From: Pseudomonadota bacterium
GTDB taxonomy: Bacteria; Bdellovibrionota_B; Oligoflexia; Oligoflexales; CAIYRB01
Assembly (NCBI GenBank): GCA_026390435.1
Contig: JAPLFY010000120.1
Coordinates: 1 to 64,000 of the forward strand
DNA length: 64,000 nt
Direction: 5' to 3'
In this document: positions 17,086 to 29,456 of the stretch, in pieces
Layout: the number at the start of each line of letters is the position of its first letter
Numbering within the stretch: position 1 is the first letter of the stretch
Notes under the pieces: model-generated
Told to the model about the DNA's origin: nothing
Seen by the model: the letters and a program-made list of their open reading frames with translations, nothing else
Databases searched by the model: none
Made by a program: the position numbers and the translations under genes

Positions 17086-19212
17086 TTGAGAAACAGGCTC
17101 ATCAATCAGCGACCTTTCGTAACAGCAGTTTTTCTGGGACTAGGATTCTTACCGCTACAAAAGGGCACGTTAGCCATGGCTGCGCAAGAACAAAAAAATG
17201 ACGGCTCGTATCTTTGGTTAGAAGAAGTTGAAGGAAAAAAGGCTCTAGACTGGGTCCGCCAACAAAATGAACGCTCCCTTAAAGAACTAGAGCACCAACC
17301 GAACTTCGCCGCATTCAAAGACGATTCGCTGCGAATTCTCCAGGCTAAAGATAAGCTCGCTAGCGGCCAAATTCAGGGCGACTATGTCTATAACTTTTGG
17401 CAAGACGCAGGCCACGTCCGCGGCATCTGGCGGCGCAGCCAATGGGACACCTACCAACAGGGCAAACCTGAATGGGAGCTAGTCCTCGATGTCGATGACC
17501 TAGCAAAAAAAGATGATAAAAATTACGTATTTCACGGGGCAACCTGCCTACGCCCTCGTTACGAACGCTGCCTCATCAGACTGTCTGTCGGCGGCAGTGA
17601 TACAAGCTACTATCGCGAATTCGATCTAAGTACGAAAAAGTTTGTCGAAGATGGCTTTGCCCTACCGCCCTCGAAATCGGAACTAGTCTGGATCAACCAG
17701 CATCAAGTTTTCTTAGAAGACGCCCTCACACCAGAGCAGCAGACCACCTCTGGTTACCCTCGCATCGTGCGTCGTTGGCAAAGGGGTACAAAGTTAGATT
17801 CGGCGGTGCAAGTGTTTCACGGTGAGGCGAGTGATGTAGCGGTACATGCCTCAGTCGTCCACGACGGCGACAAAGATTATATCTTCTTTGTGCGGGCGCT
17901 AAGTTTTTTCACTGAGCAGATTCATTACGAGCGCAACGGGCAACTAGTGGAGTTACCACTGCCGAAAGATATTCATTTTGAGGGAGTCTTTCATGGCAAA
18001 TTTCTGTTCACTAACCGCTTAACCATAGCGAACATTGTCGCAGGCTCCCTGATCGCAGCAGATCTCGATGCCCTAGCTGCTGGCAAGGCCGAATTTACTT
18101 CACTCTTTACCCCAACTGCTCAGCAGGCGCTAAAAGGCGTGGCTCGCGGCGAGAATTACCTCTACCTCTCTCTTCTTGATCAGGTCCGTAGTAAGGTGCT
18201 GCGCTTAGAGGAAAAAGGCGACAAGGGCAGCGAGACCTGGGAGCGTCTGGAGCTGCCTTTATCGGAACAAGGCTCAATCAGGCTCACAGCAGTCGATGAA
18301 GACAGCAATCGGCTGCTCATTACTTATGAAGATTTTCTGGTGCCACCAAGGCTATACGCTATGGATGGGCGTTCGCTTAGCAAAAATTTGGTACAGCAAG
18401 TACCGCCGCGATTTAATGCCAAGGGACTCATCATCAAGCAGGAGTTTGCCACCAGCAAAGATGGCGTCAAGATCCCCTACTTTATCGTCCACAGCGAAAA
18501 TCTTAAATTAGACGGCAGCAATCCTACCCTGCTTTACGGCTACGGTGGCTTCGAAGTAGCGATGCAGCCGAGCTATATGGCCGCGATGGGTAAACTTTGG
18601 CTGGAACGGGGCGGCGTCTTTGTACTCGCAAATATCCGCGGCGGCGGTGAATTTGGCCCAAGCTGGCATCAGGCCGCGCTGCAAGAGCATCGGCAGACAG
18701 CGTTTGATGACTTCGCGTCTGTGGCAGAAGATCTATTGCGTCGGAAGATCACTAGCCCACGCCACCTTGGGATTCAAGGCGGTAGCAACGGCGGGCTCTT
18801 GATGGGGGCTACCTTCACTCAACGGCCGGAACTCTTCCGGGCCGTCGTCTGCCAAGTGCCGCTTCTCGACATGCTCCGCTATCATAAACTTTTGGCGGGA
18901 GCGAGCTGGATGGCTGAGTATGGCAACCCCGATGACCCGGGCATGAACAAGGTACTGCGCAAGTACTCGCCGTTCCACAACCTGCACTCGGACAAGCAAT
19001 ACCCAGAGGTATTTTTTGTAACCTCTACTCGAGATGATCGTGTTCATCCAGGCCATGCGCGTAAGATGGCTGCGCGAATGCAGGACCTAGCCAAACCATT
19101 CCTATATTATGAGAATATCGAGGGCGGCCATAGTGCCGGAGCAAACCAATTGCAACACGCCCAAAGGTACGCTCTCGAGTTTAGTTATTTGTGGTCGCGC
19201 CTCGGCGCGTAA
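17086..19212 (+). CDS. Prolyl oligopeptidase family (S9A) peptidase
   Basis: A 708-residue serine peptidase with a signal-like N-terminus, so probably periplasmic. It starts at TTG, with GGAG seven bases upstream. The N-terminal part (YLWLEEVEGKKALDWVRQQN) is the usual opening of the S9A beta-propeller. The C-terminal hydrolase domain has nucleophile S567 (GGSNGG), the acidic pair D650/D651 (TRDDRVHP) and H682 (GGHSAG). These enzymes cut short peptides, typically after proline; the propeller excludes folded proteins. It is transcribed alone and followed by an inverted repeat. Confidence 0.93.
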   Translation: MRNRLINQRPFVTAVFLGLGFLPLQKGTLAMAAQEQKNDGSYLWLEEVEGKKALDWVRQQNERSLKELEHQPNFAAFKDDSLRILQAKDKLASGQIQGDYVYNFWQDAGHVRGIWRRSQWDTYQQGKPEWELVLDVDDLAKKDDKNYVFHGATCLRPRYERCLIRLSVGGSDTSYYREFDLSTKKFVEDGFALPPSKSELVWINQHQVFLEDALTPEQQTTSGYPRIVRRWQRGTKLDSAVQVFHGEASDVAVHASVVHDGDKDYIFFVRALSFFTEQIHYERNGQLVELPLPKDIHFEGVFHGKFLFTNRLTIANIVAGSLIAADLDALAAGKAEFTSLFTPTAQQALKGVARGENYLYLSLLDQVRSKVLRLEEKGDKGSETWERLELPLSEQGSIRLTAVDEDSNRLLITYEDFLVPPRLYAMDGRSLSKNLVQQVPPRFNAKGLIIKQEFATSKDGVKIPYFIVHSENLKLDGSNPTLLYGYGGFEVAMQPSYMAAMGKLWLERGGVFVLANIRGGGEFGPSWHQAALQEHRQTAFDDFASVAEDLLRRKITSPRHLGIQGGSNGGLLMGATFTQRPELFRAVVCQVPLLDMLRYHKLLAGASWMAEYGNPDDPGMNKVLRKYSPFHNLHSDKQYPEVFFVTSTRDDRVHPGHARKMAARMQDLAKPFLYYENIEGGHSAGANQLQHAQRYALEFSYLWSRLGA

Positions 19213-25247: not shown

Positions 25248-26189
25248 TCAAGACTCGACCAGCGCCATCACATTATCGGTAATGGTGTCGCAAATAGCAT
25301 TCAGCGGCAGGTGACTGAGATTTTGCTCGGAAAACGGGTTTTGCAACTCAGCACCGATCTCATCTAGGCTGAATAGTGGATACGAGGCTAGTGCCATGAT
25401 GAAGGGCGTAAACCAGCCAATGCGCTCAACCAGCGCGAGCGGCAAAAGAGCCAGAAACATCAGGATGAAACGTCGGGTCTTGATGACTAAGACCAGTGGC
25501 ATTCGAGTGTTTCGGATACGCTCGCAGGCACCAATAGCATCGATTAGCTGGGATCTCTCGGTCTCGGCCCGGTGAAAGGCTACGCGGTCCATACGGTGAC
25601 GTCTAAGCTCGTCTAAAAGCTTAGCGATTTTTTGACCGACATAAACTGGCATGTGCTGAGACTGCCGGATAGCATCCGCCTCCTCAGGTCCCAACAACTG
25701 CACAACCTCGTGCAGATCTTTTTCGTTCCTCAAAGACTGCCGCATGACGTGCGGCCACGCCGCGATCAACTTAAGCAATTGCTCGATTGTGTCCTTTTTG
25801 CCGCCACCATAAGACGACACCACAATAGCCAAATTTCGACTTTGGTTGACAATCGATCCCCAAATCTTGCGAGCTTCCCACCACCGGTCATGGCCGGCAT
25901 TGACGCGCATCACCAAAATCAAGGCAAGAACCGCACCTGAATACTCAAACGGGGTGATCGGAATATAAAACTCGTCGACCAATTGGGCTAACCCGCAAAT
26001 CACCGCCGCAAAGACAGAGGAGAAGACAACTCTAGGCAAGACAATCGGAGTCACTGACCCGTGCCAGGCCAGCGCAGCAGCCAGAAAAGATTTTGGCTCT
26101 GGTTGGTTTGCAAGTGAGCGAACTTTATCAGTAGTCACCGTGCTTACTGACACCGCTCGCTCGTGATCAGAGAGCAAATCTTTCAGCAT
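25248..26189 (-). CDS. Bestrophin-family anion channel
   Basis: A 313-residue membrane protein of the bestrophin/UPF0187 family. Conserved points are AWHGSVTPIVLPRVVFSS and the line LALILVMRVNAGHDRWWEARKIWGSIVN, followed by helices ending in FALLPLALVERIGWFTPF. The C-terminal part contains PLFSLDEIGAELQNPF, the calcium-clasp-like acidic segment of the family. Members are pentameric anion channels permeable to chloride and often bicarbonate. Its start lies inside the end of the carbonic anhydrase gene (23-bp overlap), so the pair is co-translated and a bicarbonate role is likely. Confidence 0.9.
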   Translation of the reverse strand: MLKDLLSDHERAVSVSTVTTDKVRSLANQPEPKSFLAAALAWHGSVTPIVLPRVVFSSVFAAVICGLAQLVDEFYIPITPFEYSGAVLALILVMRVNAGHDRWWEARKIWGSIVNQSRNLAIVVSSYGGGKKDTIEQLLKLIAAWPHVMRQSLRNEKDLHEVVQLLGPEEADAIRQSQHMPVYVGQKIAKLLDELRRHRMDRVAFHRAETERSQLIDAIGACERIRNTRMPLVLVIKTRRFILMFLALLPLALVERIGWFTPFIMALASYPLFSLDEIGAELQNPFSEQNLSHLPLNAICDTITDNVMALVES

Positions 26190-26811
26190 CTACAAAATCT
26201 TCCTTAACTTTATTTGAGGATACATAGGATTTGACTCGCGGATCGTAGATCGATACCGACCCCGTCTCAAAGTTGTAGACCCAGCCGTAAATTCTTACCT
26301 GACCTGACTGCAGTGCTGCGGACACGGCAGGGTGCGTGCGCAAGTTGTCAGCCTGAACCAAGACGTTTTCCTGCACAACTTCTAGCAGATTTTCCATTCT
26401 AGGCGTCCCTTCCAGACGACGCTTGGTCGCCTCAGCATTGCTCAGCCACCGTTTCACGGAAGGAAGCCCATCTAGGTTGACATGATTGGCCAAGGCAGCC
26501 ATGGCACCGCATTTGGAATGCCCACAAATTACAATGTTGCTCACTCGTAACCCCGCGACGGCGAATTCAATGGTCGCCTCCTCGCCGCTACTTGCCGCTC
26601 CGTAAGGCGGCACAATGTTACCGGCATTTCGAATCAAGAAGATCTCACCAGGCTCGGCTTGAGTGACCAAGTTCGGATCAATTCTGGAATCAGAGCAGGC
26701 GATCATAAGTGTGTGCGGAGCTTGACCTTGAGACAGAGATTGGAAAAGCTCTTGTTTCTGGGGGAATACGTTTTCTCGGAATCTGCGGAGGCCAGGGATC
26801 AGGTTGTTCAT
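26167..26811 (-). CDS. Beta-class carbonic anhydrase
   Basis: A 214-residue enzyme that interconverts CO2 and bicarbonate. The zinc ligands are C39, H98 and C101 (CSDSR and CGHSKCGA), with the D41-R43 dyad and the loop RNAGNIVPPYG. The start at 26811 has GGGAG seven bases upstream; a frame to 26829 adds six residues without a ribosome site. It is followed by the overlapping bestrophin gene. A predicted promoter and a 45-bp box shared with the NhaR-like gene lie upstream. Confidence 0.95.
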   Translation of the reverse strand: MNNLIPGLRRFRENVFPQKQELFQSLSQGQAPHTLMIACSDSRIDPNLVTQAEPGEIFLIRNAGNIVPPYGAASSGEEATIEFAVAGLRVSNIVICGHSKCGAMAALANHVNLDGLPSVKRWLSNAEATKRRLEGTPRMENLLEVVQENVLVQADNLRTHPAVSAALQSGQVRIYGWVYNFETGSVSIYDPRVKSYVSSNKVKEDFVDAERFAL

Positions 26812-26864
26812 CGTTAGTCTCCCGTTCAAAAGTTACTTGCTGATTATCGACATGCCTCATGATT

Positions 26865-26909
26865 TACTGAAATCGATAATAATAATGAAATACTTCGCTT
26901 TTAACAAAG
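26865..26909 (-). promoter_or_regulatory. Carbonic anhydrase promoter inside a shared box
   Basis: On the minus strand TTGTTA (26902-26907) and TATTAT (26879-26884) are 17 bp apart, a plausible promoter for the carbonic anhydrase/bestrophin pair. The region matches the one upstream of the LysR gene (28494-28538): TACTGAAATCGA, then 12 variable bases, then AATACTTCGCTTT apart from small changes. A flanking inverted repeat pairs 26837-26850 with 26927-26940 at 12 of 14 positions. Confidence 0.5.
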
Positions 26910-26940
26910 CATTCGGTGTTATGAATTCGGTAATCAGCAT

Positions 26941-27199
26941 TGGAATTAGGTGCTTATCACCAGGACCGAATGGCAAGGTCAGTCGCGCTATTAAAGGCCG
27001 CCGTCGAAAGCTAAGGTCCTTAGAGGTCGCGCCCTTTGATCACGAATTCAACTGCACACAAGCGGTGCTCATGATCATCAACCTTGCCAGCTCAAGCTAG
27101 CAGTGCGCTGCACTGCTGGGAAGTGACATAGGTAAGTCATTAAATGACTAGTGAATTATTTACTAAGGAAAAGAGATTGGAGGTGAGGCGGTTACGTGA
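26941..27199. other. Non-coding gap
   Basis: No supported gene. It holds a hairpin AGCAGTGC/GCACTGCT (27099-27117) and a 15-bp palindrome AGTCATTAAATGACT (27135-27149), the latter just past the stop of the lipoprotein gene at 27200. Neither has a clear T-tract. Confidence 0.4.
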
Positions 27200-28303
27200 T
27201 TACAAGGACTTGCCGAAAGTGACTGACCCCATATCAGGCGTAAGGAATCCCGCACCGGGCGCAGTGGCCTTCAAAGAACCTGTCACCGCTGCATTGCTCG
27301 CGGAGTCCTGTAAAGTATAAGACGGTGACGTATTCGACCCGGTAAACGAGACTACGCCCGTCCAACTATCGACACTGAGCTCGATCTTGCCCGTGCTGCG
27401 CCAGATATTATCATCTGAAGACGAGTCGCTGGTGACACCTAAAAATTTGTATTTATATATATCGTAGTAACTCAAAGTGGCTGACGGGGTAATAAACGAA
27501 TAATCATCTTTGGCGAAGTTGATGCAGTCATCGGCGCGAGACTCAATATTGTTGTTAACCGAGAACTTGCAGCCAGTAAGGGCATTGGTGCCGTCGAGAC
27601 TGACCACTCGCCGTTTAAAGGTTGTTGGAATGAAGCCGTAAAGCAACTCTGCAGTCTGTTCTGAGACAAATTGCAGATGGAAAGTACCTTCTTTGCAGCC
27701 TGTTTTACCCAAAACTACGTCCTGCAAGGACGTGAATGGCTTACCCTTGAGCCCAGACACATCGCCAGATGAGCAGCTCAGATACATGTACACTTTCAAA
27801 GTAGCTGTTAGTGAATTGACAGTCAGACTGGGGTCTGTGAGTTGCTTCACGCAATTGGACACGTCAAGATTTTTGATAATCTTTGCCGATACCTTATTGG
27901 CATCAATCGTTGTCGTATCTAGTTCAGACAGACAGCTAGTAATGTTGGTTGGCAGAGTCACCTGTGCCTTCGGTTGGTTGTTGTAAAACACACTAGTTTG
28001 AGAGAGCGTGGTGAGGACTTGTTCAGCAGTTTTGCTGTTAAGCTTATAGCCTTCAGTCGGGACCAAATCCGCATCAACCAAAAATGCACCGGACACTGGT
28101 AACGGTGTCACAGCAGTATCTGGCGGTGGCGCGGAGGGTGCGGGTGAGGTTGTCTGGCTTTTGGTTCGCTCCGAACTAGCTGGCTGATTACAGCTCGCAG
28201 TCAAAACAAAAAATACCGCTATAGCGATTAACGAAGCCGCTTGTAATACATCTTCCAATCGCGCCCAGCGCACTGGGGAGTAGCCGCTCTGATATGCACC
28301 CAT
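27200..28303 (-). CDS. Lipoprotein of unknown function
   Basis: A 367-residue exported protein. A long N-terminal stretch leads to a hydrophobic segment ending LTASC (near residue 38), a good lipobox. A linker rich in Ser, Pro and Thr follows, then an unrecognised domain with several cysteines (ITSCLSEL, YLSCSSGD, KTGCKEG) and a beta-rich C-terminus. GGAGG precedes the ATG. It is divergent from the NhaR-like gene. Confidence 0.65.
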   Translation of the reverse strand: MGAYQSGYSPVRWARLEDVLQAASLIAIAVFFVLTASCNQPASSERTKSQTTSPAPSAPPPDTAVTPLPVSGAFLVDADLVPTEGYKLNSKTAEQVLTTLSQTSVFYNNQPKAQVTLPTNITSCLSELDTTTIDANKVSAKIIKNLDVSNCVKQLTDPSLTVNSLTATLKVYMYLSCSSGDVSGLKGKPFTSLQDVVLGKTGCKEGTFHLQFVSEQTAELLYGFIPTTFKRRVVSLDGTNALTGCKFSVNNNIESRADDCINFAKDDYSFITPSATLSYYDIYKYKFLGVTSDSSSDDNIWRSTGKIELSVDSWTGVVSFTGSNTSPSYTLQDSASNAAVTGSLKATAPGAGFLTPDMGSVTFGKSL

Positions 28304-28493
28304 GAGCCCTCCGCTCGCTCCACCTAAGGTCGAAATCAGCAGTCACAAAGTAAACTGTGACTCCCCACCGTATCGTATCGACCAGAAGATAAAAAAACAT
28401 TAGGTGAAAATCTTAGACTCGTGAGAAAAACCAGACAGAACAGGTATCTATGCTAGCAAAATTACCAATTGATTGCTGACCTGTGGCATGGTC

Positions 28494-28538
28494 TACTGAA
28501 ATCGAACAAAAATACATAATACTTCGCTTTAAATGAAG
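28494..28538 (+). promoter_or_regulatory. Shared box upstream of the LysR gene
   Basis: The second copy of the two-part box (TACTGAAATCGA, 12 bases, AATACTTCGCTTT), 28 bp ahead of the regulator start. Its right part extends into the inverted repeat CTTC-N9-GAAG. The position suits autoregulation by the LysR protein. Confidence 0.5.
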
Positions 28539-28565: not shown

Positions 28566-29456
28566 ATGTCGGCAAGACCATGGGTCAACTACCACCATCT
28601 ACTTTATTTCAAGACCATCGCTCTGGAGGGCGGCATCGCCAATGCTGCCAAGAAGTTGCGGCTGGGGCAGCCGACGCTTTCCACGCAGCTGAAACAATTT
28701 GAATCAACTATTGGGCACCAACTTTTTGATCGCTCAAAAAGGCAATTGCAGCTGACCGAAGCCGGGCGCTTAGTCTTGGGATATGCGAACGAAATTTTTC
28801 GCCTCGGCGACGAGATGTTAGACGCCATAAATGACCGCCACATGGCAGCCAAGCTACAGATCCAAATCGGTGTTGCTGACACTGTGCCTAAGCACTTGAC
28901 TCTGAGTCTTTTTCATAAAGCGCAGGAAGCACACGACTGTGTCGTGTCGATCACAGAGGGCCACGGTCACGAACTGCTACGAGAATTACGAGCGCACAGG
29001 GTCGACTTAGTTATGACTAACGATGCTCCACACGCTGCAGATGCCACAGGTATCTTCGCAAAAAGCATAGCTCGCATGCCAGTCGTGGTGTGTGGCTCGA
29101 AAAAATTCGCCCGCTTAAAAACCGGGTTTCCCGAGTCCCTTAAAAACCAACCATTCGTGATGCCGTCTGTGCACACCAAGCTACGCCATGACGTGGAGCA
29201 TTTCCTTAAGCTCCGTGACATTAATGTGGATATGGTGGCGGAGGTGCAAGATACAAGCTTACAAAAGCTAATGGGCTCGCACGGCGATGGCTTAATCCCC
29301 ATCGCGGCACCAGCAGCTGAGGAAATGATCGGCAGCAAATCGTTGGTAGTGATTGGCACTCTTTTGGATGTTTACGAAGAGCTATGGTTGATTGCAGGCA
29401 AAAGACGCCTGCAAAATCCTATTGCCGCACAGATCATGAAAGACTTTCGACTTTAG
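28566..29456 (+). CDS. NhaR-like LysR transcription regulator
   Basis: A 296-residue regulator. Residues 6-65 are the winged helix-turn-helix (WVNYHHLLYFKTIALEGGIANAAKKL in outline, then QPTLSTQLKQFE). The opening N-Y-H-H-L-L-Y-F and the overall C-terminal ligand domain resemble NhaR, the activator that responds to sodium and pH in enterobacteria. GGAAG lies five bases before the ATG. A box in its promoter is repeated ahead of the carbonic anhydrase/bestrophin pair, suggesting that this operon is a target. No Na+/H+ antiporter gene is in the window. Confidence 0.85.
   Translation: MSARPWVNYHHLLYFKTIALEGGIANAAKKLRLGQPTLSTQLKQFESTIGHQLFDRSKRQLQLTEAGRLVLGYANEIFRLGDEMLDAINDRHMAAKLQIQIGVADTVPKHLTLSLFHKAQEAHDCVVSITEGHGHELLRELRAHRVDLVMTNDAPHAADATGIFAKSIARMPVVVCGSKKFARLKTGFPESLKNQPFVMPSVHTKLRHDVEHFLKLRDINVDMVAEVQDTSLQKLMGSHGDGLIPIAAPAAEEMIGSKSLVVIGTLLDVYEELWLIAGKRRLQNPIAAQIMKDFRL

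Follow-up and report, generated by a model that had tools for sequence, protein, structure and literature searches.

A putative two-part LysR-type operator at the genes for an NhaR-like regulator and a carbonic anhydrase-bestrophin pair

LysR-type regulators of the CbbR/CmpR kind control inorganic-carbon genes. LysR-type control of carbonic anhydrase (CA) is also already known, as E. coli CynR is encoded divergently from the carbonic-anhydrase operon cynTSX, which it activates, and represses its own gene (PMC5002191, PMC6627978). CynR has an inverted repeat at -66, IR1, and a further site lying across the regulator's promoter as well as the target -35 (PMC5002191); LysR-type operators generally share a dyad near -65 and a second site at -35 (PMC8407307). 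An earlier note on the DNA studied here had called a link between an NhaR-like regulator and a bicarbonate module undescribed. A title and abstract search, in a literature thin in subscription journals, turned up no paper in which an NhaR-like regulator controls a bacterial CA, so that the claim holds for regulators of this type but not for LysR-type control of CA as such.

The locus lies in a 64,000-nucleotide stretch of DNA (the window) from a member of the Oligoflexia, whose genome is designated G000; other G numbers are relatives' genomes. It has the following features.

25248-26189, minus strand: bestrophin-family channel (Pfam Bestrophin_2, 3e-68), its open reading frame overlapping the end of the CA gene (coupled pair)
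26167-26811, minus strand: beta-carbonic anhydrase, first gene of the pair (Pfam Pro_CA, 9.3e-46)
26843-26871, minus strand: predicted CA promoter, with -35 TTCAGT (26871-26866), 17 bp and -10 GATAAT (26848-26843)
26865-26909, plus strand: putative operator copy 1 (CA side), half-site TACTGAAATCGATA and dyad TTCGCTTTTAACAAA (26894-26908, centre 26901)
27200-28303, minus strand: gene for a 367-residue lipoprotein-like protein between the two copies, without a counterpart in the G004, G019 and G024 spacer
28494-28538, plus strand: putative operator copy 2 (lysR side), half-site TACTGAAATCGAAC and dyad TTCGCTTTAAATGAA (28523-28537, centre 28530)
28566-29456, plus strand: NhaR-like LysR-type regulator (Pfam HTH_1 and LysR_substrate), the presumed binder of both boxes

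Like the CbbR/CmpR systems, the locus pairs a LysR-type protein with inorganic-carbon genes, and the best PDB sequence match of the regulator is a Rubisco operon regulator (5y2v), although LysR proteins match each other broadly; unlike in those systems, no Rubisco or carboxysome gene was seen adjoining. A difference from CynR is that the genes examined here include no cyanase.

Two copies of a composite box

The box reads TACTGAAATCGA-N12-AATACTTCGCTTT, a 12-base block, 12 variable bases and a 13-base block that together span 37 bp. The earlier note had reported these blocks at two places, and exact copies were confirmed at 26865-26901 and 28494-28530, both on the plus strand (n = 2 in the window), with no match in 100 dinucleotide shuffles. 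The shared length of 45 bp that it had given was too long: 37 bp are exactly common, and the right dyad arm that makes up the rest of the span is unlike between the copies (TTAACAAAG versus TAAATGAAG). The placement of the copies agreed with what had been described, copy 2 ending 27-28 bp (28 bp in the note) ahead of the lysR ATG at 28566 and copy 1 overlapping the predicted promoter of the CA gene, whose ATG is at 26811 on the minus strand. A search of the whole 4.28-Mb assembly (153 contigs), which the note had proposed, found no third copy at three or fewer mismatches, and a reversed-pattern control gave 0 matches.

Boxes from lysR and CA spacers, 14 in all, could be aligned without gaps over 77 columns, with the layout ATTATCG, 17-18 bp, TnAAATnGATA, 15 bp, TTCGCTTTTAnCGAA. 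The last of these elements is a dyad with the form T-N11-A (T26895-N11-A26907 in copy 1, with the equivalent in copy 2). Its arms were paired in 73% of cells, compared with 28-48% when the arms were slid, and 14 double changes were found; this level of pairing was matched by 0 of 500 shuffles, which take no account of relatedness. The box thus has the make-up of a two-part LysR-type operator, composed of the T-N11-A dyad and a TnAAATnGATA half-site 15 bp away.

Read towards CA, the ATTATCG column corresponds to the predicted -10 (GATAAT) and the half-site lies over the -35; this promoter pair was picked by eye from the conserved column, a mechanical scan having missed it. The centre of the dyad falls at about -65 from the implied, predicted CA start, and the spacing is constant in relatives. 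This geometry is like that of CynR, the dyad centre corresponding to IR1 and the half-site again lying on the target -35, but the CynR dyad, ATAA-N7-TTAT, differs from the one found here. In many relatives the half-site can also be read as an extended -10 (TTTGnTAAAAT) of lysR, and the dyad lies between this element and the start codon. The lysR-side copy has lost the leftward -10 (ATTATCG changed to ATTGCTG) as well as GATA, whereas the CA-side copy retains both, a pattern that looks like specialisation of the two copies.

The regulator and its kinship with E. coli NhaR

Among NCBIfam models, NhaR (NF008284) matched the LysR regulator best and far ahead of the others, at 147 bits, which does not reach the equivalog cut-off of 219; the CynR model PRK11242 scored 88 bits (cut-off 277, not reached) and the CbbR model 54 bits (cut-off 450). 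The earlier description of the protein as an NhaR-like sodium/pH sensor thus keeps its first half, and because the score stays below the cut-off, Na+ or pH sensing is no more than a lead. The protein is 28% identical over 288 residues to NhaR of E. coli, a LysR-type activator.

We compared the box with the E. coli NhaR targets. In 2.7 kb around nhaA-nhaR, the best profile match lay upstream of nhaA in the orientation of a target (17386-17430, E 0.0033) and reads TAAAATcAGAT-N-TTCGTTTTTTACGA. In a separate matrix scan, its score was reached at only 2 of 195,818 positions of a 49-kb E. coli background, or about 1% per promoter-sized stretch, so that the match is moderate evidence for a shared site and would not be significant genome-wide. 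At pgaA a correctly oriented, weaker match, TTCGGATTTTTCGAA, was found (3 of 195,818 positions), and the matrix scan gave no match at the promoter of osmC, also an E. coli NhaR target. At nhaA, E. coli NhaR contacts G-92 and G-60. Each of these positions holds a G within AACGA, and they fall in the dyad and in the half-site, one in each. The published NhaR consensus, TCgaAAAAatCtA (PMC6307784), resembles the dyad. The two systems therefore have in common a LysR-type protein and a similar composite site at the nhaA promoter. They differ in that the targets here are CA and bestrophin and the regulator gene is unlinked to nhaA, in a half-site spacing that is one base shorter here, in the sub-cut-off score of the protein and in the missing match at osmC.

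Sites elsewhere and the candidate signal

A sequence-only profile built from the 14 lysR and CA boxes was run over G000 and 144 genomes, giving E-values that are rough throughout. Besides the two boxes, the profile matched G000 at a third site, C32:65927 (E 2.5e-6), and at a doubtful one on contig C88. The C32 site precedes a predicted membrane peptide of 52 residues (MKGISMMGYSPTTPLYVFFF...; L129 ~1290-1449) and lies opposite a DksA-like zinc-finger gene; G002, G004 and G005 have a site at the corresponding position, with short membrane open reading frames in G002 and G005. The C88 site (G000:C88:12778-12820, L130 ~1480-1520, E 0.0067) is a 17-bp perfect palindrome, CTTCGTTTAAAACGAAG, after selD, which could be an operator site or a terminator.

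Elsewhere, sites outside the training set precede baeRF, HtpX-TerC operons, HtpX, TerC and, in G013, SulP with CA and TerC; several weaker matches are probably due to chance, for example one inside a coding region of G119. In G022, two close sites (C36:7911-8193, L176) have on one side a 53-residue open reading frame that precedes the lysR orthologue and on the other a 764-residue Mrp-type antiporter gene; the gene with Mrp-antiporter domains adjoins lysR. In G048 (C2, L185) an operator-like site is followed by baeRF-like, S30AE/HPF-like and Na_H_Exchanger genes.

The earlier note had proposed looking for the box near antiporters in particular; in G000, no profile match was found at any antiporter-domain gene located in this genome (contigs C92 and C138 and the region near C23:71-75 kb). 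With filters off, the scan gave only sub-threshold scores at its TerC, HtpX and second CA genes, and a baeRF gene was not found in G000. A candidate near TerC (L121:838) was dropped for its wrong orientation and its score. As G000 showed no site at these antiporter-domain genes or at its TerC, HtpX or second CA gene, a role in the response to pH or Na+ rests on the relatives.

Our leading guess is that the signal is alkaline pH or Na+, as suggested by the kinship with NhaR, the match in E. coli and the other targets. The main alternative is that the LysR protein responds at this operator to inorganic carbon, either CO2/bicarbonate or a metabolite of it, in the manner of CbbR/CmpR-type regulators. 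The nearest targets, CA and bestrophin, speak for such a signal, as do the SulP and CA target of G013 and the PDB match to a Rubisco operon regulator, although the broad cross-matching of LysR proteins limits the weight of the latter. However, HtpX, TerC, baeRF and the MrpA-type subunit among the relatives' targets sit better with stress of the envelope, alkaline or Na+ kind, and the NCBIfam order places NhaR far above the other models; we therefore consider an inorganic-carbon signal unlikely, if still worth keeping in mind.

Building on an alkaline pH or Na+ signal, a broader reading, which we put forward tentatively and as quite possibly wrong, is that an old NhaR-type operator grammar (a dyad at -65 and an AT half-site on the -35) is found in both Oligoflexia and E. 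coli. Control by Na+ or alkaline pH would then be tied to inorganic carbon (CA, bestrophin and SulP), TerC, HtpX, baeRF and a Mrp-type antiporter gene, and in the G000 lineage the divergon would have been split and the operator copied, one for each promoter. The analysis assigns a defined, predicted operator and regulon to an NhaR-like regulator that is found across the class but is uncharacterised, and it suggests that bicarbonate handling is part of the same response as sodium/pH stress.

The distribution of the sites bears on which protein binds them. Sites at E<=1e-4 were present in 6 of the 19 untrained genomes with a lysR orthologue and in 1 of the 113 without one (Fisher 2.6e-5); within the same order alone, the counts were 6 of 14 and 0 of 19 (p 0.003). 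This co-occurrence ties the box to the LysR regulator as its presumed binder. Since the tie is one of position and co-occurrence, another transcription factor that also controls lysR could in principle be the binder. This is improbable, because throughout the class the box accompanies the lysR gene itself, also when lysR has a different neighbour, and occurs mainly in genomes that have the lysR orthologue. Moreover, T-N11-A with a centre at -65 is the signature of LysR-type operators.

A split divergon with one copy per promoter

CA and lysR diverge directly from a spacer of 127-142 bp that holds one box in G004, which belongs to the same genus, and in two genomes of the same order, G019 and G024. 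In layout this fits a divergent, autoregulated LysR-type pair. The layout is split in G000, and its close relative G002 has the same two boxes and the same intervening gene. This lipoprotein-like gene has relatives scattered in the genus and one more copy in G000. G001 has a gene for an M48-type peptidase and a gene of 154 residues between CA and lysR, and a single box, at lysR.

These comparisons, together with the dyad, the co-occurrence and the nhaA-like site, support the earlier note's reading of the box as a site for self-control and control of a bicarbonate module. Very probably the NhaR-like LysR protein (28566-29456) has its operator here and controls both its own gene and CA-bestrophin. 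The sequences show the two copies with their conservation, spacing and dyad, the single-box divergon of relatives and the sites at other targets; from these we infer binding, the sign of control at each promoter and a signal of alkaline pH or Na+. One dimer of the protein would anchor on the T-N11-A dyad and another on the TnAAATnGATA half, at the -35 of the promoter of CA-bestrophin, which it overlaps; the signal-bound tetramer would then activate this gene pair. In the lysR copy, the dyad is placed downstream of the lysR promoter and ahead of the start codon, and binding would thus be expected to repress lysR. In relatives, the single box of the divergent spacer would serve both roles. In G000 the lipoprotein gene parts the two genes and each side has its own copy, most likely by duplication.

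Comparison with G002 showed that the block bases are conserved at 25 of 25 positions in copy 1 and 24 of 25 in copy 2, or 49 of 50 overall, compared with 267 of 351 and 185 of 225 bases of the surrounding spacers (~78%). In the columns beyond the motif, likeness between the two copies in G000 and G002 is 56-64%, compared with a median of 36% for all pairs, which makes duplication of one ancestral box the likeliest origin of the two copies. Such likeness, probably through common descent, would also be expected if the box were a dispersed repeat or had been duplicated recently without playing any part in regulation. We regard this as very improbable, since the blocks have been kept while spacers and flanks diverged and the motif occurs at functionally related genes in other genera; a dispersed repeat unrelated to promoters, which the earlier note had raised against its own reading, is rejected by the finding of just two close copies in the whole assembly. 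Least probable of all is a structured RNA element, a 5' leader hairpin: the dyad could also form a hairpin in the lysR leader, but we rejected this reading since no Rfam family matched at E<=0.1 and since the predicted -10 of CA and of the other targets is downstream of the element, which leaves it outside the transcript.

With the LysR-type operator as the preferred reading, the split divergon supplies two natural copies, one for each promoter, which allow a direct comparison of the operator parts needed for activation with those needed for autoregulation.

The CA-side box is also surrounded by a 9-bp perfect inverted repeat, TGCTGATTA / TAATCAGCA (window positions 26838-26846 and 26931-26939), the right arm of which, with GAATTCGG, is fully conserved in G002.
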